Below are positions 8,414 to 22,390 of a stretch of DNA of 31,419 nt, piece after piece. Each line of letters starts with the position of its first letter. Positions within the stretch are counted from its first letter, which is position 1. Origin of the DNA: a virus; the IMG/VR virus record IMGVR_UViG_3300011113_000486, positions 1 to 31,419 of that record; one strand, 5' to 3'. Both the position numbers and the translations under genes were made by a program. The notes beneath the pieces were generated by a model. It saw only the letters and a list, made by a program, of their open reading frames with translations, was not told the origin of the DNA and did no database searches.

Positions 8414-8731
8414 TTAATTTGCTATAATACTAATTAATATTGGATTTCCGTTTAAACTTTTTATTTGAAGCTCTGAGATTTTATCAAGCTCAATAAAAAC
8501 ATTGTCGTTATTTATTATTTCTATTGTATTTGTAGTATTTAATACATTAGATATTTTTACTGAAATAACATCACCATTTATATCTGAATTATTTTTGATA
8601 AAAACTCCGTTGTTTATTTTAATAAAACTTAAATTTATTAAATCTGTTAAATTTACAAATTCATTGTTACTAATTAATAAAGATGCCATGAGTTTTGGTG
8701 AATTTATTACTTGTGTGATAAATTTAGGCAT
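8414..8731 (-). CDS. Small beta-rich virion-type protein, third of three related tandem genes (105 aa)
   Basis: The ATG at 8731 lies 1 base after the TGA of the upstream gene, with AGGAAA before it. The protein ends in a pattern like 'NNDNVFIELDKISELQIKS ... ILISIIAN'. This matches the ends of the next two upstream genes: a hydrophobic strand, E-x-x-S/K-I-S/D-x-I, then I-x-x-N as the last residues. It is the most diverged copy and is rich in Asn and Ile. The family is unknown. The placement between fibre genes suggests a small head, tail or fibre decoration protein. Confidence 0.7.
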   Translation of the reverse strand: MPKFITQVINSPKLMASLLISNNEFVNLTDLINLSFIKINNGVFIKNNSDINGDVISVKISNVLNTTNTIEIINNDNVFIELDKISELQIKSLNGNPILISIIAN

Positions 8732-8732
8732 T

Positions 8733-9065
8733 TCAATTTCCTATAACTTGATATGATATTGCTTGATTAGTATTTGCTTTAATAAAAATATCGCTTATGC
8801 TTGAACATTCTAATAATATACTCTCACCTGGTCCAAGTTTAAAACCACTATTATTTCCATGATTAGTATTAGAATGTTTTATATAAAAAAAACTATTCAC
8901 GTCAGTAGCAATGTTTTTGATTTGAAATCCAACATTTGCTACTGACGTGTCAAGTCCATAAATGTTTGTTGTAATTACAACAAAATCGTCTGCAACACCA
9001 ATAGACAAGCTATTTGAAAATAATTGTTTTACTGGATAATTTTCAAATTCTTGTATGAATGACAT
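8733..9065 (-). CDS. Small beta-rich virion-type protein, second of three related tandem genes (110 aa)
   Basis: The start at 9065 follows AAGGAAA. The core reads 'FQIKNIATDVNSFFYIKHSN', then 'GFKLGPGESILLECSSISDI', and ends QAISYQVIGN. It aligns by eye with the upstream gene (GFVLKANEQIFVEATSLDSI, ending GITFSIYAN). The shared plan is K-N-I-x, G-F-x-L-x-x-x-E-x-I-x-x-E-x-x-S-x-x-x-I, then a final strand ending in N. No known enzyme motif is present. The gene ends in TGA, followed 1 base later by the next ATG, so translation is probably coupled. Confidence 0.75.
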   Translation of the reverse strand: MSFIQEFENYPVKQLFSNSLSIGVADDFVVITTNIYGLDTSVANVGFQIKNIATDVNSFFYIKHSNTNHGNNSGFKLGPGESILLECSSISDIFIKANTNQAISYQVIGN

Positions 9066-9073
9066 TATTTTCC

Positions 9074-9400
9074 TTAATTAGCGTATATGCTAAATGTAAT
9101 ACCTTGACCAGATGAATTGTTTTTAACTGTAATAGAATCTAATGATGTTGCTTCAACGAAAATTTGTTCATTTGCCTTGAGCACAAATCCTGTATTTGAA
9201 GCGTGGGTTGCTCCGCTGAATGCAACTCTCATTTCAAGTGGACCAATATTTTTGACTAAAGCACCATCATTTAATGTCAAACTACTAGCTCCAGAAACGT
9301 GTGCGTTGGCAGTAGCGAAATTTTCAGCTGTTCCGCTAATGTGTCCGACAGTATATAAAGCAGATGGATTTGTGATTGCGATTCCGAATTTCTTTGGCAT
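9074..9400 (-). CDS. Small beta-rich virion-type protein, first of three related tandem genes (108 aa)
   Basis: I chose the ATG at 9400 because it has a strong Shine-Dalgarno sequence (AGGAGAA) and lies just downstream of a late promoter octamer. A longer in-frame start at 9454 would read back through the terminator hairpin and is rejected. The protein begins MPKKFGIAITNPSALYTVGH and is Ala-, Ser- and Thr-rich with regular beta strands and no cysteines. It heads a three-gene unit of related small proteins. The strong late signals suggest high expression, as for a decoration or fibre component. No function is assigned. Confidence 0.8.
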   Translation of the reverse strand: MPKKFGIAITNPSALYTVGHISGTAENFATANAHVSGASSLTLNDGALVKNIGPLEMRVAFSGATHASNTGFVLKANEQIFVEATSLDSITVKNNSSGQGITFSIYAN

Positions 9401-9417
9401 ATTTTCTCCTGTAATTC

Positions 9418-9425
9418 TATTTATA
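9418..9425 (-). promoter_or_regulatory. T4-type late promoter octamer TATAAATA before the small-protein trio
   Basis: This is an exact TATAAATA on the minus strand. It overlaps the T-run of the preceding terminator and lies 17 bases before the ATG at 9400, with a strong ribosome binding site in between. The terminator-then-promoter order marks the start of a new late unit. Confidence 0.78.
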
Positions 9426-9448
9426 AAAAAACCCACTTTCGTGGGTTT
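9421..9448 (-). terminator. Rho-independent terminator after the TPR glycosyltransferase gene
   Basis: On the minus strand there is an 8-bp perfect stem (AAACCCAC with GTGGGTTT), a GAAA tetraloop and a following T-run. It begins a few bases after the TAA at 9454-9456. It has the same design as the terminator at 4520-4546. Confidence 0.9.
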
Positions 9449-9453
9449 AATCA

Positions 9454-10662
9454 TTACTTACGTTCCTTAAATTTCTTAGGTTTTACTTTTTCCATTTCTT
9501 GAGGAGTTTGCATTTCTTTCATTTGACTCTGAAATGCCATTTCTTGTTTTTTCATTTGTTCTAAAATATGTCCATATTGCTGCATATTGCTTTGAATTCT
9601 AGGAATTTCCGACTTTGGAATTTTATTTTCAATCAACAACTTTCTACAGACATCATAACCAAGCTGAAATTGGCCAGCTGCATGAGCGGTTGCTGCTAAT
9701 TCATCTAAAATTGCATAATTATAAATCATATCTGGAACAAACAAAATATCACTCTGTGGGAAAGGTATCTCTGATGCAGCCTTTGCAAACATATATGCAA
9801 TAGCTGGCATATTAAATTTTGTTCGATATATCTGAGCAATATGATATAATGGTTCTGCACGAATTGGTCGTGAATTATATGCAAGTAGGAACGCCTCCAT
9901 AATTTCACCCCAAGGACGATTTAACATAGCCTTTGCAACGGCAATTCGATAGAGAGAGTAATATACTTCTTCTCCCCATCCACCCTTTTCGGCTCGTCGC
10001 ATGTATGCCTCTATCGCTTTTTCCCATTGTTGCGAATCAAAATATGATTGTCCCAAATAGAACATATAACGAATATTATCTGGTTCGTCTATAAGTGCTT
10101 TTTCTAAAGTTTCTGCATCCTTGGAATATTTCTCAATTGGTGTAATACCAACATTTCTTGCTCCAACAGTACGAGCAACAACTCGGTAATTTCCTTCTAA
10201 TTTTGCAATAATTGGTTGTTCTTTAATACGAGAACGAGCATATTCATGTAGAACTCCCACATATTCCCAATCGGCTTCAAGTTTAAATATTTGATTTCTC
10301 CACCAAGAAAATTCTTCTCTTCCTAGACGAAGAGCATATGAATCTGCTTTATTTCCTGGTGGTAATTTAAACTCACCTTGTAGGTAATCATCAGCATCGA
10401 TCATATAGGCATATTCTGCCTTACCTTTGCAAAGATCTAAAGCTTCAGTTCTTGATTTACCGAAACCTTTCCATTCTCGCTCATGAAGTTCTCCTGGAAT
10501 ACCTTTTTCTGCAAAGAACTTCTTGATAATATCTTGTGTTCCATCAGTAGATCCAGTATCAACAATTACCCAATAATCAATAAGTTTATAGATAGAATTA
10601 AGACACTCAAGAATCACATGAGATTCATTCTTTACAATCATTGCCAATGATAATCGATACAT
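9454..10662 (-). CDS. Family 2-type glycosyltransferase with C-terminal TPR repeats (402 aa)
   Basis: The N-terminal half is a GT-A domain that begins MYRLSLAMIVKNE and has VDTGSTDGT (about 34-42) and the metal-binding DADDY (about 89-93). The second half is helical, with tetratricopeptide-like segments such as IRYMFYLGQSYFDSQQWEKA. The last 40 residues are Met-, Lys- and Gln-rich and basic. This GT2-TPR architecture is frequent in T4-like phages and in bacterial surface-glycan loci. The ATG at 10662 has AAAGGA upstream and an exact TATAAATA 18 bases upstream, so it is likely a late gene. It lies next to virion genes rather than deep in the glycan island, so it may glycosylate a fibre or decoration protein. 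The substrate is unknown. Confidence 0.87.
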   Translation of the reverse strand: MYRLSLAMIVKNESHVILECLNSIYKLIDYWVIVDTGSTDGTQDIIKKFFAEKGIPGELHEREWKGFGKSRTEALDLCKGKAEYAYMIDADDYLQGEFKLPPGNKADSYALRLGREEFSWWRNQIFKLEADWEYVGVLHEYARSRIKEQPIIAKLEGNYRVVARTVGARNVGITPIEKYSKDAETLEKALIDEPDNIRYMFYLGQSYFDSQQWEKAIEAYMRRAEKGGWGEEVYYSLYRIAVAKAMLNRPWGEIMEAFLLAYNSRPIRAEPLYHIAQIYRTKFNMPAIAYMFAKAASEIPFPQSDILFVPDMIYNYAILDELAATAHAAGQFQLGYDVCRKLLIENKIPKSEIPRIQSNMQQYGHILEQMKKQEMAFQSQMKEMQTPQEMEKVKPKKFKERK

Positions 10663-10809: not shown

Positions 10810-12153
10810 TTAAATTCTTATATTATTTGATTTATCAAAATAGTTAGTCACTACAGTTTCAATATAATCTAATTGTTCATCTGTTATGACTGGACTTGTT
10901 CCTAAGAAGAATGTATCAGTAGTGACCTTAGTTGAAACCGGAAAATCCTTCTTTGCGTTTCCAGAATATACTCCATCATATGCTGGCTGTAGAAGAACAT
11001 TTCCACCAAAATAATTTCTTGTTTGTATCTTATTATCTTCAAGATACATTGTAAAATTATTTCGTTTTAGTTTTATATTATCCCGGATAGTCAATGGAAA
11101 TGCAAACCATGATGGATCGGACTTTTCTGTTGCCTTTGGTAAATAAAATATTTTATCATATTTTGAAAAAATTGAAAAAAGACGATTAAAGTTTTTTTTA
11201 CGAATTTCAATAATCTTATCAAGTTTTTTAAGTTGCACTAATCCAATACATGCTTGCATTTCGATTGGTTTTAGATTGTAACCAATTTCTTCGTACACAT
11301 ACTTGTGATCAAAAATTTCATCAGGAAATGATGGAAGCCAATTACTAAATCTTTTTTTGCACATCCCATCTTTTAAACATGACGCACCCTTACCTGAGCA
11401 ATAACAACCCCTACCCCATTCTCTTAGGCTTTTTATTACTGTCTCTTGTTCGTCTGTTTTACAAGCAACAAATCCACCTTCACCCATTGTAATATGATGT
11501 GCTGGATAAAAAGAACAAGATGAAAATTGACCAAATGAACCTAAATATTTTCCATCATATTTACTGCCAAGTGCATCACAACAATCTTCCAATAGAATGA
11601 GATTATATCTATCTACAATCTCCATTAAGCGATCCATATTTGGTGGATTACCTAGAACATGCGCGAAAATAAGAACTTTAGCACCTTGTTTTGCTGCTTC
11701 TTCTACTTGATCAAGATTTAAATTAAGTGTTTCAATATCAATATCAACAAATACTGGAGTAAATCCATTTTGTAAAATCGGATTAATTGTTGTTGGAAAT
11801 CCGGCTGCTGGTGTTATTATTTTGGTTCCTTTTGGAAGATTATAAAGTCTTTTTGACTTTAAAGCACTAATCATTAGAAGATTAGCACTTGAACCACTAT
11901 TTATTAAAGCACCATATTCTTTACCTAGATAAGATTTAAATTGTCTTTCAAATCTAAGACCATTTTCACCAAGCACCCACCATCCATTTAAAATTGATTC
12001 AATAGCAGCAAAATATTCATCACCATCAAAAAAATCACCAGAGTATTGGACATAATCTTTTCCAGCAATCCATTGCTTTTTTTGGTTTATTTTATGCTGT
12101 ATTAATTCTTCAATTTTAGATTTAATTAAATCATTATTTGTTATTTGTATCAT
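10810..12153 (-). CDS. rfbH: RfbH/E1-type PLP-dependent sugar 3-dehydrase with Fe-S motif (447 aa)
   Basis: This is a DegT/DnrJ/EryC1/StrS-fold protein of the size of CDP-4-keto-6-deoxyglucose-3-dehydrase (E1, about 437 aa). The motif SFYPAHHITMGEGG puts His at residue 220, where aminotransferases of this fold carry the PLP-binding Lys. That swap defines the dehydrases. The cysteine set C250-x-C252, C259 and C265 in the WGRGCYC ... MCKKRF region matches the [2Fe-2S] site of E1. Members remove the 3-hydroxyl of an NDP-4-keto-6-deoxyhexose, using electrons from a reductase (E3), on the way to 3,6-dideoxy sugars. No E3 gene is seen here. The start overlaps the upstream SDR gene by 20 bases. The base attached to the sugar (CDP or dTDP) is not settled. 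Confidence 0.88.
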   Translation of the reverse strand: MIQITNNDLIKSKIEELIQHKINQKKQWIAGKDYVQYSGDFFDGDEYFAAIESILNGWWVLGENGLRFERQFKSYLGKEYGALINSGSSANLLMISALKSKRLYNLPKGTKIITPAAGFPTTINPILQNGFTPVFVDIDIETLNLNLDQVEEAAKQGAKVLIFAHVLGNPPNMDRLMEIVDRYNLILLEDCCDALGSKYDGKYLGSFGQFSSCSFYPAHHITMGEGGFVACKTDEQETVIKSLREWGRGCYCSGKGASCLKDGMCKKRFSNWLPSFPDEIFDHKYVYEEIGYNLKPIEMQACIGLVQLKKLDKIIEIRKKNFNRLFSIFSKYDKIFYLPKATEKSDPSWFAFPLTIRDNIKLKRNNFTMYLEDNKIQTRNYFGGNVLLQPAYDGVYSGNAKKDFPVSTKVTTDTFFLGTSPVITDEQLDYIETVVTNYFDKSNNIRI

Positions 12154-12925
12154 AATTTATATCTTTCAGCTTATTATATGTATTTATTATACCAAAATCA
12201 AGACCTTGTTCGTGGATATCTGTTCCATGTGAATTTCCACAATAAAACTCTAATTCTTTATTATTTTGTATAATAATTGGAACCTTATAATCAGCTAAAC
12301 AATTTATTTTTTCTGCTATTGACTTTAATGTATATTTATTTTCATAACAACAATTAATGTTTTTTGGTCCTTCATTATTAATATAAAAGTCAACGAGAGA
12401 TATTAGATCTTGCATATAATAAAAATCCATAATTTTATTATTATGAATAATCATTGCATCTTTTTTAATATAACGTAAAATATTAGATTTAATAAATCTT
12501 GTTTCTAATTCATTATGATCAAATACACCAAATATACGTAAATTATACCAATCATGAATATTATTAATTATTTCATTAATAGCATTTTTACTTATACCAT
12601 ATGGTGTGTTATTTTGAAATATTTCTGCACCAGAACCAAATGTTATTAATTTTTTAAATGAATTTTTATTATCATTTAAATTATAAATCATTTTAAGATT
12701 TTGATAAACGGTATCTTTATTGTCTGTTTTTAATCTACTACCACCAATCACGGCGGTGTGGATTACAACATCAAAAAACTTATTTTCAAAAAATTCTTTA
12801 GTTGATGAAGAATCGGTTAGATCAAATTCATTTCTTGTGACATTTAAAATATTATATTTAATAATTAAATTATTTTTTATACTTTGTGCGATATATCCAT
12901 TGCCACCAGTTATCAAAATATTCAT
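12134..12925 (-). CDS. Short NAD(P)-dependent sugar epimerase/reductase, SDR family (263 aa)
   Basis: A Rossmann start (MNILITGGNGYIAQ, G7-x-x-G10-x-x-A13) and a Y109-x-x-x-K113 catalytic pair in YGISKN mark an SDR. It is shorter than typical extended SDRs (about 310 aa) and has a reduced C-terminal substrate domain, as in some 4-keto reductases. AGGAAAA precedes the ATG at 12925, and the start overlaps the TAA of the methyltransferase gene. Placed next to the 3-dehydrase and the ThDP enzyme, it could reduce the 4-keto sugar or the added branch carbonyl. The substrate is inferred. Confidence 0.83.
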   Translation of the reverse strand: MNILITGGNGYIAQSIKNNLIIKYNILNVTRNEFDLTDSSSTKEFFENKFFDVVIHTAVIGGSRLKTDNKDTVYQNLKMIYNLNDNKNSFKKLITFGSGAEIFQNNTPYGISKNAINEIINNIHDWYNLRIFGVFDHNELETRFIKSNILRYIKKDAMIIHNNKIMDFYYMQDLISLVDFYINNEGPKNINCCYENKYTLKSIAEKINCLADYKVPIIIQNNKELEFYCGNSHGTDIHEQGLDFGIINTYNKLKDINYDTNNK

Positions 12926-13680
12926 TATTTTTTCCTGAAGACTGCGATATAGTTAATTTGATTTGGGTCAAGTACTATTTCTAATAATTCAAAATTATCG
13001 TTTACATCTTTATTTTGCTTATCATTCAAGAAACTTGAATATAGAATATTTGTTTTTTCTGCTAATAGCAACTCTTCACCCAATAACGAATTATCATATT
13101 TATACCAACCTCTTGATTTTAGAGAATTTTGTATATCTTCCATAAAATATAAACCGTCTTTCTCCAATAGATCTATTGATTGCCATAAGCTAATCATCAT
13201 ATGATTTGGCCAATGGCTTCCATCTTCTATTATAAATTTATATTTCACATTTAATTTTTTAATATCAGACCAATCATCAAAATTACCCTGATCTGCATAA
13301 ATAAAATTTATAGATTTATTATTTAACTCTTTTATTTCATCCAATTTATCTGATAAATTATTTCCCCAAAAATTATCAACACAATATAAATTAATATTTT
13401 TGAAATAAGTCATCCACATTTTAGCTGATGCATATGGAAATCGTTTATCACAAACACCAATTTCCAACATATTAAATTGACTTTCTCTGTATGATGACAT
13501 ATATTTATCATAAACTTTTGTATAATGCATACAAAAGTGAGATGGATAATTATTACCCCAAGTTAATGTTTTTTTATCTGCTGTTCCCTTATCTGTTTCG
13601 TAATGATTAGCAATTTCATTTAAATTTTTATCAGCATTATAAAAATTATTTACATTTGATTGTTTTTCAAAAAATTTCAT
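12925..13680 (-). CDS. Class I SAM-dependent sugar O-methyltransferase, MycE/OleY-like (251 aa)
   Basis: The arrangement HYETDKGTADK, then HYTKVYDKYM, FNMLEIGVCD (SAM glycine motif), NLYCVDNF (acidic loop), FIYADQGNFDDW, FIIEDGSHW and DGLYFMEDIQ matches the family of MycE/OleY-type sugar O-methyltransferases and relatives in glycan loci. IEDGSHW carries the metal- and base-type acidic and histidine residues. AAAGGAT precedes the ATG at 13680. In this operon it would O-methylate the nucleotide sugar or its glycoside. The acceptor is not known. Confidence 0.82.
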   Translation of the reverse strand: MKFFEKQSNVNNFYNADKNLNEIANHYETDKGTADKKTLTWGNNYPSHFCMHYTKVYDKYMSSYRESQFNMLEIGVCDKRFPYASAKMWMTYFKNINLYCVDNFWGNNLSDKLDEIKELNNKSINFIYADQGNFDDWSDIKKLNVKYKFIIEDGSHWPNHMMISLWQSIDLLEKDGLYFMEDIQNSLKSRGWYKYDNSLLGEELLLAEKTNILYSSFLNDKQNKDVNDNFELLEIVLDPNQINYIAVFRKK

Positions 13681-13690
13681 TTAATATCCT

Positions 13691-15436
13691 TTATAAATTA
13701 AAAACGTCAGAAATATACATATCAGTCAATTCACCGGGAATAATTTTTCCATTTTTATCTATACCCTTGTGTACTACTTTTGGTTCATGTTTTTCATATG
13801 GGTATGAAAATAATTCACAAATCAATGGTCCATTATAATTAAATACATCATTCAATACGTCATCTATTTGATTATTATTTGTAATTGAAAAATACTTAAT
13901 ACCATATGCATCACTTATTTTTGATAAATTTGGAAAGCTAATTCCGCTATCTGGACCGGAAGCAATCTCTTTTCCATTAAAAAAAGTTTCTTGAGTTATT
14001 TTAATGGACAAATATCCTTCATTATTTATAACAAATATTTTAATAGGAAGATTATGGTGAATTATTGTTTGTAATTCTTGAATATTCATTTGCAAACTTC
14101 CGTCACCTTCCATACAAATAACAGGATTTTTATTATTTGCAAAACAAGCACCAATTGCAGCTGGTAAACCATATCCCATGCTAGCACAACCAACATTAGT
14201 AAAACATATTTGATCTTTTTTCAGATTATATGTTTGTAGTGTAACAACATGTGCTGTACCATCACTTGTTATAATTGGATGCATGTTAGCGTAATTTTTT
14301 AATTTATTAATAAAATAATAAACACTAACATATCCTTTCATTTTTTCGTGTTTTGGATAATAATATATTTGTTGTTTTCTAGTTTCTTTTACAAAACATC
14401 TCCATTCATCAATATTGATTTTATAATCTTCTTTACAAATTGTTTCAATAAAAGTATTTACATCAGCATTTATAGCCAGATCTATTGGAAATTTATGTTT
14501 ATGAATTTCAGACGTATCTATATCTACTTGTATTTTTTTAGAATTTGGAGAAAACCCTTTAAAATTGTATCCAGTCATTTTAACATTTAATCTACTTCCT
14601 AAGATAATTAGTAGATCAGCTTCCTGTACAATTTTATTTGATGTCAATTGCCCTAAAATACCTATTCTACCAGAATATAATTCATATTCATTATCAACTG
14701 AATCAACTCCACTATGAACACCAGTAACTACAGGAATTTTATATTTTTTTATAAAATTATCCAATATTTTTATACTGTTAGATATGCGAATTCCATTACC
14801 AGCAACAATCAATGGTTTTTTAGAATTTTCCAATAATATTTTAAAATTATTTAATATAGATTCATCTATTGTATCAATTTTAATTAATTTTTCATATTTC
14901 TTTAAATCATCAATATCGATTTCAGCACCTTGAAAATCTAAAGGTATATCAATCCAAACTGGGCCTGGTCTACCAGTAATTGCTATTTCATATGCTTTTT
15001 CCAATTCATATAGAATATCTTTTGGATTTTTTAACATTACAGCATATTTTGTCATAGGTTTTACTGAATCGATAATATTGAATTCTTGATCACCAATCTG
15101 GCGACAACCAGTTTCATCTCTAAGTTGATTGGAAGAAACTTGACCTGAAATAAAAATAGCAGGAATGCTATCTAACCAACACCCTAATACACCAGTTAAT
15201 GTATTAGTTCCTCCAGGTCCAGTGGTGACTATTGCAGCACTTAAGTTGTTACTTAATCTAAAATATCCCTCAACAGCCATTGCAGCTGCTTGTTCGTGGT
15301 GTGTGCAAATATATTTTAATTTATTAGATTTACCCAAAGAATCTATAAGATGTATACAACCACCACCAGATACGGTAAATACATGTTTTATTTTTTTATT
15401 TTCTAAAAATTCTATTACTATATCAGATAATTTCAT
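13691..15436 (-). CDS. Acetolactate-synthase-like ThDP-dependent enzyme (581 aa)
   Basis: This is the full three-domain layout of the IlvB family. The N-terminal PYR domain has the cofactor-activating Glu48 in HHEQAAAMAVEGYFR. The middle domain has PLIVAGNGIR. The C-terminal PP domain has E-GDGS (444-447), then NN at 471-472, which binds the diphosphate and Mg. Family members add a two-carbon unit derived from pyruvate to an acceptor. In sugar loci the precedent is YerE, which makes branched-chain yersiniose from a CDP-3,6-dideoxy-4-keto sugar. The dehydrase that makes such a keto sugar is two genes downstream. True acetolactate synthase is the alternative, but no IlvN subunit is present and the neighbours are all sugar genes. 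The start overlaps the HAD gene by 14 bases. Confidence 0.86.
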   Translation of the reverse strand: MKLSDIVIEFLENKKIKHVFTVSGGGCIHLIDSLGKSNKLKYICTHHEQAAAMAVEGYFRLSNNLSAAIVTTGPGGTNTLTGVLGCWLDSIPAIFISGQVSSNQLRDETGCRQIGDQEFNIIDSVKPMTKYAVMLKNPKDILYELEKAYEIAITGRPGPVWIDIPLDFQGAEIDIDDLKKYEKLIKIDTIDESILNNFKILLENSKKPLIVAGNGIRISNSIKILDNFIKKYKIPVVTGVHSGVDSVDNEYELYSGRIGILGQLTSNKIVQEADLLIILGSRLNVKMTGYNFKGFSPNSKKIQVDIDTSEIHKHKFPIDLAINADVNTFIETICKEDYKINIDEWRCFVKETRKQQIYYYPKHEKMKGYVSVYYFINKLKNYANMHPIITSDGTAHVVTLQTYNLKKDQICFTNVGCASMGYGLPAAIGACFANNKNPVICMEGDGSLQMNIQELQTIIHHNLPIKIFVINNEGYLSIKITQETFFNGKEIASGPDSGISFPNLSKISDAYGIKYFSITNNNQIDDVLNDVFNYNGPLICELFSYPYEKHEPKVVHKGIDKNGKIIPGELTDMYISDVFNL

Positions 15437-15821
15437 TTGTAAATTTCTTTAAATCAATCAGGGCTTGAGTCCAATTATGAAATTGGATGGCCTTATCGTC
15501 AATATAACATATACATCTAGGTTTTTCAGCAGTAACTTCAGAAATATATTGTTTGATATTATATTTTTCAAGCCACTCCCATATCAATTGCGTTCCAGTT
15601 TTTCCATTAATTATGGGTCTATCTGCTTTTGCTTTTGCTGTAAATATTACTATCTTATATTTTTGAGATAATAATTTCAGCGATTCAATGGATCCTTCGA
15701 TTGGAGTACCATATATTGTTCCATCATGATATCCATATTCAAAACTATGAATAACTCCATCAAAATCTACTGCTATTATTTTAGATTCGTCTTCCTTAAT
15801 TGTATTTTTATAAGTCATCAT
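15423..15821 (-). CDS. HAD-superfamily phosphatase (132 aa)
   Basis: The HAD motifs are in order: VDFDGVIH (motif I, nucleophile and acid Asp), IFTAKAK (motif II Thr), K in EKPRCICY (motif III) and IDDKA (motif IV). The small size with a minimal cap is typical of phage and glycan-locus HAD proteins. The ATG at 15821 overlaps the TGA of the aldolase gene, and a second ATG at 15818 is equally usable. Placed between an aldolase and a ThDP enzyme, it may remove a phosphate from a sugar-pathway intermediate. A nucleotide 3'-phosphatase-like role cannot be ruled out. Confidence 0.8.
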   Translation of the reverse strand: MMTYKNTIKEDESKIIAVDFDGVIHSFEYGYHDGTIYGTPIEGSIESLKLLSQKYKIVIFTAKAKADRPIINGKTGTQLIWEWLEKYNIKQYISEVTAEKPRCICYIDDKAIQFHNWTQALIDLKKFTNEII

Positions 15822-16615
15822 ATAGCCATTGATTGATTGATTCTATCTTGAATCATTTTAATTCTTTTAATATCTTGATTTGCTAATTTTGTATAAAATT
15901 CATGTTTTGTTTGTAGCCATTCATATTCAAATAATTGACCTTTTGCTAAGGCTTTTGCTAAATTTTTAAGAGCAATGGATGGATCATATATTGCATATCT
16001 TGTCTCAAACTTATCAAGTAAGCCATCAGAATGTAATTTTTTCAGAAATTCTAAAGAATCAATAGATATTGCTCCACCTAAACACAGTTTAAGTCCTTTT
16101 TCTTTAATCTTAGAAAATACTGTTTTTGTCATAGTATATACTTCATCACTATTTACATATGATCTATCTTTTCCCATAGAGGATACTAGATCAACTCTGC
16201 CAATAGTAATTCCATATAATTTATTAACTTCCTGCGTATTTAGCATTTTATCTACATTATTTACAGCAGTTATTGTTTCTACATTAATATTTATATTGAT
16301 ACCAGAAATAACATCTTCTGGAATATAGGTTGTGGATGCTTGAATAAATTTCTTTAATCCAAATTCAGATTCTACCATTGGTGCAACAATGCCTTTAACA
16401 CCAATAACTAGAGAATCTTTAATATCCCTTATAGCTTCGGGTCCGCCAATTTTTAATGTTAATTTTGTATTAGATTGATTACATAATTCTTTAAGACGTA
16501 CAGTTTCATTGAATAATGCACCTTCATCTTCGAAGGATGTTTTTATGCCTATCAAACCATCATTTTCTATTAAGTCTGTAAGTAATTTCACACATTTAAA
16601 TTCTCTACTGTTCAT
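15818..16615 (-). CDS. HpcH/HpaI aldolase / citrate-lyase-beta-like protein (265 aa)
   Basis: The TIM-barrel pattern of the PEP/pyruvate family is visible: GIKTSFEDEGA near the N-terminus, LTLKIGGPEAIRDI, KGIVAPMVES, NINVETITAV (metal-binding Glu) and ITIGRVDLVSS (metal-binding Asp). Members cleave or form C-C bonds with pyruvate or acetyl groups and need Mg or Mn. The last 50 residues are basic and helical. AAAGGAAAT precedes the ATG at 16615. The gene lies just after the RmlB-like gene and before the HAD and ThDP genes. It may supply or use a pyruvate-type unit in the same pathway, but the exact reaction is unknown. Confidence 0.8.
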   Translation of the reverse strand: MNSREFKCVKLLTDLIENDGLIGIKTSFEDEGALFNETVRLKELCNQSNTKLTLKIGGPEAIRDIKDSLVIGVKGIVAPMVESEFGLKKFIQASTTYIPEDVISGINININVETITAVNNVDKMLNTQEVNKLYGITIGRVDLVSSMGKDRSYVNSDEVYTMTKTVFSKIKEKGLKLCLGGAISIDSLEFLKKLHSDGLLDKFETRYAIYDPSIALKNLAKALAKGQLFEYEWLQTKHEFYTKLANQDIKRIKMIQDRINQSMAI

Positions 16616-16627
16616 ATTATATTTCCT

Positions 16628-17581
16628 TTACCATATAAATTTATTTTGATAATATTCTACTATATTTTTAATTTCAATAGAAAAATTCTTTTTAGGAAAC
16701 CAACCTAATTTTTTCAATTTAGTATCGTCAAGTGAATATCTTACATCTTGTCCTACTCTATTGCAAGAAAAATCTACAAAATCTTCAATATTATTATTTG
16801 AAATATTATAATGATATAAAATGTTTTTAATTGTTTCCAAATTACTTTGTTCAAATCCACCACATATATTATAAATTTCATTTTTCACGCCAGAATCTAT
16901 AATAGTAATCACAGCATTAGCTGTGTCTTCTGCATGTAGCCAATTTCTTATAGGCGTTCCATTGTTATGGAGTGGAATTTTTCTACCTAGATTAATATAT
17001 TTACACGCTTTTGGTATTAATTTTTCAATATATTGTCCTATACCATAATTATTTGTTGGTCTTACTATAACATATGGTATGTTATATGTTCTTGACCAAG
17101 CAAGTATCAACATGTCTGCTGCGGCTTTTGTTGCAGAGTATGGATTTGATGGTTTAAGTAAATCTGTTTCGGTATGGGAACCTTCAACAATATCCCCATA
17201 AACTTCATCAGTGCTAAAATGTAGAAGCACTGGGGTTTTTGAACTTTCTTGTCTATAATTTTTAATTAGTTTAAGTAAATTATGAACACCATCTATATTA
17301 GATTTTACAAAATCATCACTATCTGCAATAGAATTTCCTACATGAGTTTCAGCAGCAGTATTGATAATATAATCGCAATCGTATAAAAATTTTAAATCAT
17401 TTATATCACAATGTACAAATGAAAAATTATTATAATTATTAAACTCTTTTAAAAGTTCTTTATTGGCAGCATATGTTATTTTATCTACACCTTTTACATA
17501 CCACCCTTTTTGTAAACATACTCTCGTAACATAAGATCCAATAAAACCTAAGCATCCTGTAATATACACAACTTTTTTCAT
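16628..17581 (-). CDS. rmlB: NDP-glucose 4,6-dehydratase, RmlB/RfbB type (317 aa)
   Basis: The protein has the N-terminal NAD motif ITGCLGFIGS (G9-x-x-G12-x-x-G15) and VDKITYAAN, close to the RmlB signature VDKLTYAGN. Catalytic Thr124-Asp125-Glu126 is in FSTDEVYGD, and Y148-x-x-x-K152 in YSATK. RPTNNYGIGQYIEKLIP and NWLHAEDTANA are further RmlB-like blocks. These point to the dTDP-glucose enzyme rather than the CDP-glucose enzyme, which usually has a different motif at the STDE site. The product would be an NDP-4-keto-6-deoxyglucose, the expected substrate of the downstream 3-dehydrase. The length is slightly below the usual 340-360. Confidence 0.9.
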   Translation of the reverse strand: MKKVVYITGCLGFIGSYVTRVCLQKGWYVKGVDKITYAANKELLKEFNNYNNFSFVHCDINDLKFLYDCDYIINTAAETHVGNSIADSDDFVKSNIDGVHNLLKLIKNYRQESSKTPVLLHFSTDEVYGDIVEGSHTETDLLKPSNPYSATKAAADMLILAWSRTYNIPYVIVRPTNNYGIGQYIEKLIPKACKYINLGRKIPLHNNGTPIRNWLHAEDTANAVITIIDSGVKNEIYNICGGFEQSNLETIKNILYHYNISNNNIEDFVDFSCNRVGQDVRYSLDDTKLKKLGWFPKKNFSIEIKNIVEYYQNKFIW

Positions 17582-17596
17582 TTTTTATAAACTCTA

Positions 17597-18475
17597 TTAA
17601 TTTTGTTTTATAGCTATCCAATCACTTGGAAAATAATTACCATTTAAATATTCAATATCTGGGCGATGATCATTGACATAATTATATGGACAAATAACTT
17701 TTCTATCTTTATTTATGTTTAAATAAGCTGCCATCCATGGAAAACTACTATTAGCTATTATATTATGATTACACATACTCATTAAACATAATTGCTGAAA
17801 TTTATCTAATCCTTCGACATAAACTGCATTGTCTATTTTAAAATTTTCTTTAACCCAAGTCATACCACTATCGCCAAATGCAGCTCCAGAAAAAATTAAA
17901 TATTTTATTTTTTTATCTGGAATTAATTCTTTTATTTTTTCAACTGCTTTATAAAAATATTCCAATGAAAGATTTAATGATGCTAGTTGTAGATAATCAC
18001 CTCTTCTAAATGAAATAGATACAGTTATTTCATCACTATGAACATTTTCATTTAAAAAATTTAAAGAGTGTTCTATATATTCTGGTTTAAATGTAAATAA
18101 TTTTTTTAAATCATCTATATTTTGATGATAATACTTATATAGTCCAACATCCCCATCAATAATGTAATTATTTTTATTATTTAGTGTAAATAAATTTAAA
18201 TCTATATGACTTAACTCATTATTGTTTTTTGGTTCCACATATATAAACTGTTTATCTTTTAAATCTTCAACAGATATCAGCTTTGGTTTGTTTATAAATG
18301 GAATATCTAAACAATAGTTATAAGCACCATTATATAAAGTTCCATATAAATATTCTTTTACAAATACTAATTCAAGGCCACAAGTTTTTGCTATTGAATA
18401 TAGTCCTGCATATTGCGCCATTTGAGATGCGAATCCACAACAAATTGGTATGTTTAATTTTGTTAGATATCCCAT
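17597..18475 (-). CDS. GT11-type (alpha-1,2-fucosyltransferase-like) glycosyltransferase (292 aa)
   Basis: The family GT11 blocks are present: GFASQMAQYAGLYSIAK (compare G-N-Q-M-F-Q-Y), SISFRRGDY (about 153-161, donor binding), CNHNIIANSSFPWMAAYLN and a final FPSDWIAI. Most characterised members transfer fucose from GDP-fucose in alpha-1,2 linkage, although phage donors are untested. AAGGAAA precedes the ATG at 18475. It lies between a GT34-like gene and the nucleotide-sugar block. Confidence 0.87.
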   Translation of the reverse strand: MGYLTKLNIPICCGFASQMAQYAGLYSIAKTCGLELVFVKEYLYGTLYNGAYNYCLDIPFINKPKLISVEDLKDKQFIYVEPKNNNELSHIDLNLFTLNNKNNYIIDGDVGLYKYYHQNIDDLKKLFTFKPEYIEHSLNFLNENVHSDEITVSISFRRGDYLQLASLNLSLEYFYKAVEKIKELIPDKKIKYLIFSGAAFGDSGMTWVKENFKIDNAVYVEGLDKFQQLCLMSMCNHNIIANSSFPWMAAYLNINKDRKVICPYNYVNDHRPDIEYLNGNYFPSDWIAIKQN

Positions 18476-18490
18476 ATATATTTCCTTTTT

Positions 18491-19189
18491 TTATAAATAA
18501 TTTTTAAAATAAGTATTTAAAATTCTCTTTCTATGAATATTTGATGCTCCAGTTAAATGGCACAGAAAAGAATTTTTATTCCAGTGATATGGTATATCTG
18601 CTCTAGTTGCCCATTGCTCTGCGTACATCTCTTTTGATGGTGCTGCATTTAAATAATCATGGTCGAGAATTTTCATCATATTTTTCAATGGAGTATTAAA
18701 ATATAAATAATTCATGGCTACTTGTTCATTTGGAGCTTTACCATTTAAACTATAAAGTACATTTAAAAAATTATCCGTATTATGATTTTTAACAAATAAA
18801 AAATTTCCAGCACTAATGCTATATCTGCCATTCCAATCATATGATGCATAAAATGTAATATTTTCTTCTAAAGGAAAATTTTCTATTTTTATTTCATCAT
18901 TAGTTATTATTGAATCAGCATCTACCCATAAAACAATATCATAATATTTTAACATATCAGCTGTTCTGGATACTCTCAAAAAACCCATATTTGATTCTTC
19001 GAAGTTTTTTTCTTTATCCTCACCAAAATCTTGTATACTTAATAAATCATAACCATGTTTATTAACATATCTTAGTTTTGATGGTAGTGTCATATCTGCA
19101 ATTTCTTTTATTGTTAAATCTCCAGCAGAATAATATGCATCTAATGATTGTTTTCCATATCCTGTAACAAGTAAAATTCGTTTATTCAT
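18491..19189 (-). CDS. GT34-like glycosyltransferase with DxD motif (232 aa)
   Basis: A GT-A fold start (RILLVTGYG), a Lys/Arg-rich second block (SKLRYVNKHGYDLL), the metal- and donor-binding D90-A-D92 in VLWVDADSIITN, an NFLFVKN block and a C-terminal FLCHLTGASNIHRK resemble the GT34 (galactosyl/mannosyl) superfamily and related phage enzymes. The start overlaps the preceding gene by 8 bases, so translation is probably coupled. Donor and acceptor are unknown. Confidence 0.8.
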   Translation of the reverse strand: MNKRILLVTGYGKQSLDAYYSAGDLTIKEIADMTLPSKLRYVNKHGYDLLSIQDFGEDKEKNFEESNMGFLRVSRTADMLKYYDIVLWVDADSIITNDEIKIENFPLEENITFYASYDWNGRYSISAGNFLFVKNHNTDNFLNVLYSLNGKAPNEQVAMNYLYFNTPLKNMMKILDHDYLNAAPSKEMYAEQWATRADIPYHWNKNSFLCHLTGASNIHRKRILNTYFKNYL

Positions 19190-20024
19190 GTATATTCATT
19201 CCCCAATCATTTAAATTTGGTATATTATATTTTTTTACATTATCTTTTATATAATTGTACTTATAGTTATTTTTTAAATTTTGATTTTCATATATTTTTT
19301 CATCTATTTTCAATGGAAATTGAAAATTTTCATATTGCCAATCAAAATTATTAACGGAAGCATCATATGCAGTGGAAGGTAGTACGTCTATATTAAAATT
19401 TTTATTTAAAACATAGTCTTGTATTTTCCAAAAATATTGTTTTATTGCTACTGTTTTTTTATCCAACCACTGTAAATGGGCGATGAACAAATGAGGAACA
19501 GTTATAATTCCTTGTTTTTCTGGTACTGGAAGATGTTCTGAATGTTTTTGTATATTTTTAAAAAATACTGGTTTAGAATAAGAACCCAATCTATCCTTTA
19601 AATTATATTTCCATGGCCCATCAACTCTGATTTGATTTTTTGATGTATATTGAATCCATTGTAAATGAATCATAATATCTTTATTATTATCTAAAATATT
19701 ATAAAGTTCATTTTTACTTAATGTACCATCTAAATATTCATCAGTATCTAAACATATTATTTTATTGCTATATTTTCTTGCTTCATCGAATAATTTTTGT
19801 CTTATATTTGATTCAATTTGTGTTGTTAGATCACTCTCATTAACACCACTATCTAAAATAGATAAAATATTAAACTTATCTTTATTTTCAGTTAAATATT
19901 CTAACGTCCCATCATCACATCGATCTAACATAAAAACAAAAGCATCAGCATATTTTTGCCATTGTTGCATCATTTCTTTAATTAAAAATAATTCATTTCT
20001 TGTTATGGTTATTTGTACTATCAT
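19182..20024 (-). CDS. GT2-like glycosyltransferase (280 aa)
   Basis: The protein begins MIVQITITRNELFLIKEMM, followed by YADAFVFMLDRCDDGT and the D93-T-D95 motif in IICLDTDEYLDG. This is the pattern of the GT2-like family that reads 'T-R-N-E ... W-x-x-Y-x-D-x-x-x-x-x-D-x-x-x-D-x-T'. A His-rich block (HLFIAHLQW) follows, and no membrane helix is present. The ATG overlaps the TGA of the upstream GT10 gene (ATGA). The AT content is extreme, with long A and T runs. The donor sugar is unknown. Confidence 0.82.
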   Translation of the reverse strand: MIVQITITRNELFLIKEMMQQWQKYADAFVFMLDRCDDGTLEYLTENKDKFNILSILDSGVNESDLTTQIESNIRQKLFDEARKYSNKIICLDTDEYLDGTLSKNELYNILDNNKDIMIHLQWIQYTSKNQIRVDGPWKYNLKDRLGSYSKPVFFKNIQKHSEHLPVPEKQGIITVPHLFIAHLQWLDKKTVAIKQYFWKIQDYVLNKNFNIDVLPSTAYDASVNNFDWQYENFQFPLKIDEKIYENQNLKNNYKYNYIKDNVKKYNIPNLNDWGMNIHE

Positions 20025-20857
20025 AATGTCTCCAATATTCTTTTAAATATATTTTCACAGTATTTTTTTGCTTCTTCGAAATTTTTATTAATTTTTTCTA
20101 AGTTTATATTATACCACTCTTCTGTGTAATCATGCACTAACACGCGCTGAAAATCAATCCAGTAGCTCGTATCAAAGAAATCGGAAACATTCGGACATCC
20201 CCAATATACTGGTATTGTTTTTGTAATTAAACAATCAATAAGTTTTTCTGAAATATAATTTTGATCATCTGTGCTTTCAATAGCAACAGAATACATGCTT
20301 TTAAAAAGATGAATTTTGTCATCATTTGGTAATTTTTCAAAGTTTGGTATTGGAAATCTGGTAGAGCTGTAAAAATTTTTCTTTGTTTTAATTTTATTTT
20401 GATTTGCAAATATTATATGTCTAAGCTCATAGCCAGATTTACCAGATAAAGATCCACAAATCATTGAAATAGAAAGCTCTTTTTTAATATTTCCTAGATC
20501 ATCACTATATTTTCCAAATGAGTCTGGGTGATGTGATGATTTATTTAACCAAGTTGTACCATAGAGCATAAATTTTGCATTTTGACATTTTTCTAATACA
20601 ATTGGATTTGATGTTATAATTTTATCATATGCTTTATGATGTTTAATTATATTATCAGGAGTTTCAACCCATCTAGATGTAGTTGGTTCATTAACATGAC
20701 AAAAAATCTTATATGAATTATCATTTACAAAATTAGGAGATCCGCCTGGATATTGATTTTTTCCGAATCGTGTAAAATGTATTTCAGTTGGATTTACAAC
20801 ATCTGGTATCTCATCAGAAGATACCATATAATCCGCGTTGAGTATTATTGGCTTCAT
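20021..20857 (-). CDS. GT10-type (alpha-1,3/4-fucosyltransferase-like) glycosyltransferase (278 aa)
   Basis: The C-terminal half carries the GT10 donor-binding signature: YSVAIESTDDQNYISEKLID, then TIPVYWGCPNVSDFF (about 200-228). The N-terminal half contains SISMICGSLSGKSGYELRH, typical of phage GT10-like proteins. The family usually transfers fucose from GDP-fucose with inversion. A second, more distant GT10 gene lies at 21548-22390. The start overlaps the upstream gene by 4 bases (ATGA). Confidence 0.87.
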   Translation of the reverse strand: MKPIILNADYMVSSDEIPDVVNPTEIHFTRFGKNQYPGGSPNFVNDNSYKIFCHVNEPTTSRWVETPDNIIKHHKAYDKIITSNPIVLEKCQNAKFMLYGTTWLNKSSHHPDSFGKYSDDLGNIKKELSISMICGSLSGKSGYELRHIIFANQNKIKTKKNFYSSTRFPIPNFEKLPNDDKIHLFKSMYSVAIESTDDQNYISEKLIDCLITKTIPVYWGCPNVSDFFDTSYWIDFQRVLVHDYTEEWYNINLEKINKNFEEAKKYCENIFKRILETL

Positions 20858-21537
20858 TTTTGCACCAAAAATTTATTACCAGGACTTTGAAATTTTATAT
20901 TATGTTCATCAAAACCCATATTTCTCAATACTTGCTCTTTAGATTCTCCATCGGCAAGACCCATAGTAATTACTGGTTCTCCACCATGTATAGGAACACC
21001 TGGCCATACGCAATAAGCATTACCCAAAAATGCCATACGAACTCCTGTATTTTCTTGTAACATTTTAGTAAATATCTTTAATAATACTTCATGATCAAAG
21101 GCTACATTTGCTTGTTTTTCTAAAGTTTCACTTGCTTCTATCCAAGCATAAACAAATTCATATGCTTTTGGAGTCTGATTTAGGTATATTGGCGATGCCT
21201 TTGGCATACCAATGCTTTGATCTTCCTTAGTTGGAATTTTAGGAAAAGCCATTGCCAAATCAACTTTATCTGAGAATTCATCAAATACATCAAGCTTTTT
21301 ATGAACCAATGAATCAACGTCTAACCAAACTAATGGTGTACGCAATTCATTCATCATCTCAAGTATGAATCTTGGTTTTGACAAACAATTTGAACGATAT
21401 GAGCCTTTGGATGGTCGATGGCGTATAATGTTTGGAACGCCTAAATCATCAAGATTTTTTTTCAATCTTATAGCATGATCACTATAGTAAGTACGACTAT
21501 CCACATCAGCATAAAAAGAAATCACAGGTGTCTTCAT
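20854..21537 (-). CDS. Nucleotide-diphospho-sugar transferase with DxD motif (227 aa)
   Basis: It begins MKTPVISFYADVDSRTYYSD. It has a basic acceptor-side loop (RHRPSKGSYRSNCLSKPRF) and D73-V-D75 in PLVWLDVDSLVHKK, followed by HEVLLKIF. These are the marks of a small GT-A enzyme of the broad GT77/DUF-type 'nucleotide-diphospho-sugar transferase' group. The start at 21537 lies 7 bases after an exact TATAAATA octamer and has no Shine-Dalgarno sequence. Base composition looks less AT-biased than in the genes just downstream. Donor and acceptor are unknown. Confidence 0.8.
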   Translation of the reverse strand: MKTPVISFYADVDSRTYYSDHAIRLKKNLDDLGVPNIIRHRPSKGSYRSNCLSKPRFILEMMNELRTPLVWLDVDSLVHKKLDVFDEFSDKVDLAMAFPKIPTKEDQSIGMPKASPIYLNQTPKAYEFVYAWIEASETLEKQANVAFDHEVLLKIFTKMLQENTGVRMAFLGNAYCVWPGVPIHGGEPVITMGLADGESKEQVLRNMGFDEHNIKFQSPGNKFLVQK

Positions 21538-21544
21538 GGTCTAG

Positions 21545-21552
21545 TATTTATA
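21545..21552 (-). promoter_or_regulatory. T4-type late promoter octamer TATAAATA before the 227-aa glycosyltransferase gene
   Basis: The minus strand reads TATAAATACTAGACC and then ATG at 21537. TATAAATACT extends the T4 late consensus beyond the octamer. It overlaps the stop of the upstream GT10 gene. A transcript starting here would have almost no leader. Confidence 0.65.
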
Positions 21553-22390
21553 ATTGTTTTATCATATGATATAGAACATCATCAGCATTTTCTAATTTAT
21601 TAACACGGTCAAAATTATTTTTTACTGCATCAAGTTTACTGTAGTATAGTTCTTCAGTAAGTTGTGATGGATCAAATGAGGAGTTGAGTGTAATTATTCC
21701 ATCAGCATCAAAATAATTACCAATATCTTTTGTTCCCCAATATACAGGAATAGTTCCTGTAGCAAAACAATCTGTTAATTTTTCTGTAAAATAACTTTGG
21801 TACTTATCATTTTCAATAACAATTGAAAACATATATGGATTCAAAGCTTTGCTTTTGTCACCCCATGGACGTTTCTCATAACCAAATCTAGGAGATCCAA
21901 GTACACCACCATAAAGATCTATTTTATTTTTCCATTGTTCAGCTAAAGTATGTCGTATTTGATGTCCTATGGTGGACTTTTTGGGGGATGCTATTAAAGA
22001 AACTAATTTTTCTTTTTTAAAAATTTGTTTATCTTCTATCCAAGGTAAGTTACTTCCAGCAAATGAGAAATGAAATTTTTCATTTTTCGTACAATATTCT
22101 TTATCAGAAAAATAAATTGCATCATATGAATCACATATTTTCTTTAAATTATTTTCAAATATATTTTTAGGAAATAAGTGTTCAAAAAATATTGCTCTTG
22201 ATTCGCATATCCACGCTACTTTCTTTTCTCCTGGTTTTTTTACATAATTAATACCATGAGCAATAGAAGAATCTATAAAAACTTTTATTTGAGCATTTTC
22301 AGATGTCCAAGAAAAAAGTTTTGGTTTAAGATCAGAACAAGATGATTGACTAACATCAAACGGAGCACCGATGGCTTGCATTAAATCCAT
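21548..22390 (-). CDS. GT10-type (fucosyltransferase-like) glycosyltransferase (280 aa)
   Basis: The GT10 donor site is clear: MFSIVIENDKYQSYFTEKLTD, then GTIPVYWGTKDIGNYF (about 195-228), with the usual E-N ... T-E-K-L and I-P-V-Y-W-G. The upstream part has KKSTIGHQIRH and ALNPYMF. It is a distant paralogue of the 20021-20857 gene, not a recent copy. It is the first glycan gene after regA, so it marks the junction between the replication block and the glycan island. No strong ribosome binding site is visible before the ATG at 22390. Confidence 0.87.
   Translation of the reverse strand: MDLMQAIGAPFDVSQSSCSDLKPKLFSWTSENAQIKVFIDSSIAHGINYVKKPGEKKVAWICESRAIFFEHLFPKNIFENNLKKICDSYDAIYFSDKEYCTKNEKFHFSFAGSNLPWIEDKQIFKKEKLVSLIASPKKSTIGHQIRHTLAEQWKNKIDLYGGVLGSPRFGYEKRPWGDKSKALNPYMFSIVIENDKYQSYFTEKLTDCFATGTIPVYWGTKDIGNYFDADGIITLNSSFDPSQLTEELYYSKLDAVKNNFDRVNKLENADDVLYHMIKQL

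Follow-up and report, generated by a model that had tools for sequence, protein, structure and literature searches.

The locus and its genes

This study concerns a 31,419-base virus record (IMG/VR IMGVR_UViG_3300011113_000486, positions 1 to 31,419; hereafter the window) and a minus-strand operon within it, which combines genes of nucleotide-sugar metabolism with a thiamine diphosphate (ThDP)-dependent enzyme. Homologues of the sliding clamp gp45, the clamp loader gp44 and the clamp-loader small subunit, a gp46-like protein (SbcC), the late sigma factor and UvsW were found at 22-31 kb, and the window was therefore identified as a fragment of a T4-like phage. The stretch between these T4-like genes and tail-fibre-like and collagen-like genes at 1-9 kb holds a run of 14 minus-strand genes. 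Within this run, positions 10810-17581 are filled by seven complete open reading frames with intergenic gaps of -20 to +12 bp. In order of transcription, these are:

16628..17581 (-), RmlB-type nucleoside diphosphate (NDP)-glucose 4,6-dehydratase, 317 amino acids (aa) (TIGR01181, 300 bits; STDEVYG and YxxxK motifs)
15818..16615 (-), aldolase of the HpcH/HpaI superfamily, divergent subfamily, 265 aa (PF03328, E 1.7e-10; fold)
15423..15821 (-), HAD phosphatase, 132 aa (NF046079, E 7e-4, far under the cut-off; DFDG/T/DD motifs)
13691..15436 (-), YerE/JanthE-like ThDP-dependent carboligase, 581 aa, candidate C-branching enzyme (phmmer, tree, fold)
12925..13680 (-), MycE-like S-adenosylmethionine-dependent O-methyltransferase, 251 aa (3ssm MycE, E 2e-7; 8ia9, E 6e-7)
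12134..12925 (-), short extended short-chain dehydrogenase/reductase (SDR), 263 aa (PF01370, E 4e-17; GGNGYIA and YGISK motifs)
10810..12153 (-), E1/RfbH-type pyridoxamine phosphate/[2Fe-2S] NDP-4-keto-6-deoxyhexose 3-dehydrase, 447 aa (PRK15407; best PDB match 3bcx)

A second contig, L002, carries the identical gene order, with 84-97% identity over the genes compared, and the arrangement is therefore unlikely to be an assembly accident. An earlier interpretation made from the DNA letters alone (the sequence-only reading) had proposed a phage operon combining RmlB-type, E1/RfbH-type, ThDP and MycE-like enzymes; the complete reading frames, family scores and motifs bear this out, as do the gp45, gp44, UvsW and late sigma factor homologues and the order in L002 with regard to the phage setting. 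Two details had to be amended. A single short SDR was found where several had been announced, the only other candidate being RmlB itself, and the operon, which had been taken to span just these seven genes, continues with six genes upstream and one downstream.

The ThDP enzyme is a YerE/JanthE-like carboligase

By sequence and predicted fold, the ThDP enzyme is a YerE/JanthE-like carboligase and stands apart from true acetolactate synthases. Its best PDB match by phmmer was JanthE from Janthinobacterium sp. HH01 (PDB 8RPH), with 378 bits, followed by an acetohydroxyacid synthase (AHAS) with 280 bits. When the AlphaFold2 model (pLDDT 90.7) was compared with known structures using Foldseek, the six top matches were all JanthE chains (TM 0.91-0.93) and AHAS ranked behind (TM 0.84-0.89). 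JanthE, which belongs to the YerE-like enzymes and joins 2-oxo acids to ketones (PMC12188165, PMC12247030), was the sole characterised member of this group in these comparisons, the sequences of YerE and ErwE lying outside them.

The sequence-only reading had fixed a ThDP phylogeny in advance as the test that could refute it. The resulting tree comprised 146 proteins. With an SH-aLRT support of 99, it separated JanthE, the phage enzymes and 86 bacterial relatives from IlvB, IlvI, Gcl and PoxB, the outgroup consisting of six rows, two of them on long branches; no clustering with true acetolactate synthases was observed, and the predicted kinship with YerE held. The enzyme also scored under the cut-offs of all NCBIfam acetolactate synthase models shown (best TIGR00118, 354 versus 538 bits). 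In the phage collection, its best match was only 33% identical, among records resembling host acetolactate synthase.

The enzyme carries the GDG..N ThDP motif, which is CDG in JanthE, and E48, which is invariant in the alignment. P293 of JanthE (numbering of the paper, one off in the alignment used) is a lysine in the window enzyme. The arginine of the AHAS FDDR motif, which binds the acceptor carboxylate, is also replaced by lysine; this position was dropped as a diagnostic, as most bacterial relatives retain the arginine. We propose that the enzyme adds an acyl unit to a ketone. Distant YerE-like ThDP genes were also seen adjoining apparent phage portal or minor head genes (L048, L058, L059, L060, L068), with no sugar genes recognised nearby.

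The carboligase is paired with a dideoxy-sugar core

RmlB retains the DE catalytic pair and YxxxK. Its TIGR01181 score does not reach the cut-off of 365, but far exceeds that for the CDP-glucose 4,6-dehydratase model TIGR02622 (67 bits); the nucleotide carrier of the sugar is therefore probably dTDP. RfbH scores 481 bits with PRK15407, over the cut-off of 423, and its closest solved structure is the E1 enzyme 3bcx (E 5e-108). The predicted replacement of the pyridoxal phosphate (PLP)-binding lysine by His220 was found at the end of the motif SFYPAHH (214-220), and the expected [2Fe-2S] cysteines are present at positions C192, C250, C252 and C265.

The SDR, which is proposed to reduce the new branch ketone, is encoded one or two positions away from the ThDP enzyme in 34 of the 38 phage loci scored. 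The methyltransferase has MycE as its top PDB match, over residues 49-184 only, and also matches a demethylmacrocin O-methyltransferase (8ia9). It can be called MycE-like, and this weak similarity hints at O-methylation of the sugar.

As anticipated, the association of an E1-type dehydrase with a YerE-like enzyme is conserved over many loci, both phage and bacterial. Of 81 ThDP loci, the window counted, 68 have a protein of one DegT-family cluster and 62 a protein of the SDR cluster. Across the phage loci, all DegT proteins that could be aligned over the PLP site, whatever their class, have histidine and none has lysine, and the RfbH class retains the E1 Fe-S cysteines. Bacterial ThDP relatives are likewise paired with RfbH. 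When the search was started from RfbH, a ThDP gene was found in 29 of 80 viral loci (9 of 22 where both flanks were long). Loci with the dideoxy-sugar core but no branching enzyme thus occur as well, in keeping with branching as an optional addition.

A further DegT class with the motif SFYASHVIT (L007, L011, L012, L043, L050-L053, L056, L076, L081) has histidine at the PLP position and lacks the Fe-S cysteines; its members are perhaps 3-dehydrases working without an Fe-S cluster. In L009 and L072, the ThDP, aldolase or RmlB genes are split into several frames, by decay or assembly error.

A proposed donor-making module lies beside the carboligase gene

The aldolase was modelled as a TIM barrel with high confidence (pLDDT 95), and its top Foldseek matches were SbnG and HpaI. 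Profile searches matched the HpaI and YfaU aldolases (E 0.001), and E113 and D142 align with metal ligands of GarL. Single-sequence phmmer searches against the PDB gave no match for the aldolase or the HAD phosphatase, and no record of the phage collection matched the aldolase. HAD is proposed to strip a phosphate from the aldol adduct.

The gene set beside the ThDP gene varies: aldolase and HAD, as in the window; aldolase, SDR and an AroB-like phospholyase; a PanB-like protein; a NeuB-like protein; or DJ-1, cupin and HAD. Pyruvate aldolases, PanB and NeuB-type enzymes all give 4-hydroxy-2-oxo acids, and the first four modules plausibly build such acids. In the second module (L011, L053, L093, L097 and others), the SDR and the AroB-related sugar phosphate phospholyase (TIGR04425-like) occupy the place of HAD between the aldolase and the ThDP enzyme. 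The fifth, donor-side module, upstream of the ThDP gene in L013-L019, L034-L036, L073 and L078, comprises a DJ-1/PfpI protein and a mannose-6-phosphate-isomerase-type cupin, usually with HAD.

Searches started from the modules, whose loci were counted without dereplication, led back to the carboligase. A ThDP relative lay within 6 kb of the aldolase in 69 of 75 viral loci, three of the six exceptions being at contig ends. In the 79 loci newly retrieved with PanB (L252-L330), it lay within 200 bp of the PanB gene in 78 cases, the exception again being at a contig end. The viral PanB-like query passes the NCBIfam panB cut-off; no panC, ilvC, ilvD or homologue of the window HAD was found in the PanB-first viral loci. 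Near the aldolase, HAD (12 loci) and the AroB-like phospholyase (53 loci) were mutually exclusive. This exclusivity and the absence of window-type HAD with PanB would fit a need for dephosphorylation if the aldol partner is a sugar phosphate, which would be needless for a one-carbon partner.

With regard to inheritance, the module tracks the ThDP enzyme much better than RmlB, SDR or RfbH. After the phage loci had been dereplicated at a ThDP identity of 90%, nearest neighbours agreed in their module in 39 of 41 cases for ThDP, 23 of 34 for RmlB, 16 of 36 for SDR and 17 of 32 for RfbH, and fasttree trees implied 3-5 module changes for ThDP versus 12-17 for the other genes. In a natural swap between L005 and L075, RfbH is 95% and RmlB 89% identical, and the ThDP enzymes share only 35% identity; L005 carries the aldolase and L075 PanB.

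Proposed pathway and alternative readings

We consider it fairly probable that the seven-gene operon makes a nucleotide-activated, C-4-branched 3,6-dideoxyhexose in six steps. The enzyme classes, key residues and module-ThDP linkage can be read from the sequences; the substrates, the use of dTDP as carrier, the succession of reactions and the glycan that receives the sugar are all inferred, as follows. RmlB would convert NDP-glucose, probably dTDP-glucose, to the 4-keto-6-deoxy sugar, from which the E1/RfbH-type enzyme would remove O-3 with electrons from a host reductase to give the NDP-4-keto-3,6-dideoxy sugar as acceptor. The HpcH-type aldolase would condense pyruvate with a small aldehyde, probably a phosphorylated one, and HAD would dephosphorylate the adduct to a 4-hydroxy-2-oxo acid, the donor. 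The YerE/JanthE-like enzyme would then decarboxylate this acid and attach the acyl unit at C-4 of the acceptor; the SDR would reduce the new ketone, the methyltransferase would cap a hydroxyl, and glycosyltransferases would place the sugar on a virion or host-surface glycan. The branch would probably be longer than the two-carbon unit of yersiniose.

More tentatively, and with somewhat less than even confidence, this scheme can be extended to a combinatorial system for C-branched sugars in T4-like and other phages, in which a shared RmlB-dehydrase-SDR core is combined with an exchangeable cassette, any of the five gene sets above, and the matching ThDP carboligase sets the branch.

Several observations weigh against the proposed pathway. 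Genes for RmlA, RfbF and an E1 reductase were not recognised in the window, and the reductase would have to come from the host. Solved class II pyruvate aldolases share only about 17% identity with the aldolase, the active-site His50 of GarL is not conserved in its alignment, and SbnG, among its nearest folds, is a citrate synthase; owing to the last two points, the aldolase reaction is counted as inferred. Eleven non-redundant ThDP loci have no recognised donor module. Finally, physical proximity may account for part of the linkage between module and ThDP enzyme. Nevertheless, adjacency alone is insufficient, since SDR and RmlB are often adjacent too and show weaker linkage.

The sequence-only reading had favoured a yersiniose-like sugar with a two-carbon branch (acetyl, then hydroxyethyl) derived from pyruvate, and the aldolase and HAD, which it regarded as extra steps, would then act in unrelated reactions. 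YerE does use pyruvate and CDP-4-keto-3,6-dideoxyglucose (PMC12247030), JanthE accepts pyruvate too, and the phage ThDP loci L062-L064 carry RfbH and no recognised donor module. We nevertheless regard a two-carbon branch as unlikely, because aldolase and HAD are better read as a module for a longer, hydroxylated 2-oxo-acid donor. A plain pyruvate donor gives no reason for the aldolase to stay near the ThDP enzyme, to give way to PanB or NeuB at equivalent positions and to track the ThDP tree. The dehydratase is of the RmlB (dTDP) type and not of the CDP type found in yersiniose synthesis.

It is also conceivable, though distinctly improbable, that the ThDP enzyme acts on an unrelated ketone or aldehyde and makes an acyl decoration that is attached to the 3,6-dideoxy sugar, without a C-C branch on the ring. 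In its favour, the substrate range of YerE-like enzymes is broad: JanthE, whose natural substrate is not known, accepts numerous ketones and aldehydes (PMC12188165). The RfbH-RmlB-SDR set also lacks a ThDP gene in most RfbH-first loci. In contrast, the His-type 3-dehydrase occurs in most ThDP loci, which would follow from its product serving as acceptor, and no acyltransferase was recognised in the window operon.

A true acetolactate synthase, with PanB in sister phages, serving as an auxiliary metabolic gene (AMG) for branched-chain amino acids or CoA can be dismissed as highly improbable: acetolactate synthase models are the top NCBIfam scores and a viral survey places ilvB-type K01652 under valine and pantothenate biosynthesis (PMC8226683), but the scores are far under the cut-offs, AHAS falls outside in the tree, no regulatory subunit gene adjoins, and the viral loci examined lack panC, ilvC and ilvD, the tree and these absences having ruled this reading out.

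Relation to known systems

Branched 3,6-dideoxy sugars and YerE-like enzymes are already known from bacteria, and more than 200 YerE-like enzymes are predicted according to a review (PMC12247030). Yersiniose A synthesis in the Yersinia pseudotuberculosis O-antigen likewise relies on a ThDP carboligase of the same subclass (YerE), an E1 enzyme that makes the 4-keto-3,6-dideoxy acceptor and an expected subsequent ketone reductase. In contrast to its CDP-dependent RfbG, the window dehydratase is RmlB-type, and neither of its CDP-glucose genes, RfbF and RfbG, was recognised in the window; the window adds the aldolase and HAD beside the carboligase, the methyltransferase, a phage location and probably a longer branch. 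Closest in logic, by its published description, is the erwiniose pathway of Pectobacterium atrosepticum, whose enzyme ErwE has 4-hydroxy-2-oxo acids as its preferred donors and makes no use of pyruvate (PMC12247030). Among phages, cyanophage 3-dehydrase genes, for example those of Synechococcus phages S-H68 and S-B05, encode an RfbH homologue with 43% identity to that of the window, and no YerE-like ThDP match was found among the Synechococcus phage records. In the open-licence papers searched, neither a phage-borne C-branching pathway nor exchangeable donor modules came to light. The window operon thus represents a modular form, carried by a phage, of a pathway type known from bacteria.

These results assign a concrete and testable function to viral genes usually labelled acetolactate synthase or PanB, and such AMG calls may be wrong. 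Should the combinatorial system be correct, viral acetolactate synthase and pantothenate AMG annotations would in part denote a C-branching system, and cassette exchange among phages would quickly alter a virion or host glycan, as an antigen-like or exclusion trait. The window phage and its relatives probably vary an unusual glycan on the virion or host by module swapping. Branched sugars are predicted in phage biology, beyond the bacterial surface glycans and antibiotics from which they have been described so far, and the loci form a natural collection of matched donor-making enzymes and carboligases for building tertiary alcohols.

Flanking glycosyltransferases and possible targets

Six co-oriented genes lie upstream of RmlB (17597-22390), five of which are glycosyltransferase-like, and one glycosyltransferase gene lies downstream of RfbH:

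21548..22390 (-), GT10-type glycosyltransferase (PF00852, E 7e-10)
20854..21537 (-), 227-aa protein amid the glycosyltransferase genes (no Pfam match; placed by position)
20021..20857 (-), GT10-like glycosyltransferase, weak (PF00852, E 7e-4, under the gathering score)
19182..20024 (-), GT2-like glycosyltransferase (PF13704, E 2e-5, slightly under the gathering score)
18491..19189 (-), GT34-like glycosyltransferase (PF05637, E 8e-10)
17597..18475 (-), GT11-type glycosyltransferase (PF01531, E 1e-18)
9454..10662 (-), GT2-TPR glycosyltransferase, 147 bp past RfbH (PF00535, E 3e-14; phrog_13126, E 1e-26)

A survey of 29 viral records, most of them fragments, revealed neither a Wzx (PF01943) nor a Wzy/WaaL-type (PF04932) gene; this result does not decide the target, but leans towards a cytoplasmic one, such as a virion protein. 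The window proteins scored for hydrophobicity showed no stretch typical of a membrane segment. A study of pelagimyophages takes such glycosyltransferases as modifiers of the host O-chain (PMC7029224).

Near the glycan genes, a collagen-like repeat protein and a tail-fibre-like protein (phrog_16641) are encoded at 1-1056 and 1832-4501 on the minus strand, and are candidate glycosylation targets. Between the glycan and tail-fibre-like genes, at 8414-9454 (-), three successive small proteins (105-126 aa) are alike at their ends and are possibly paralogues.

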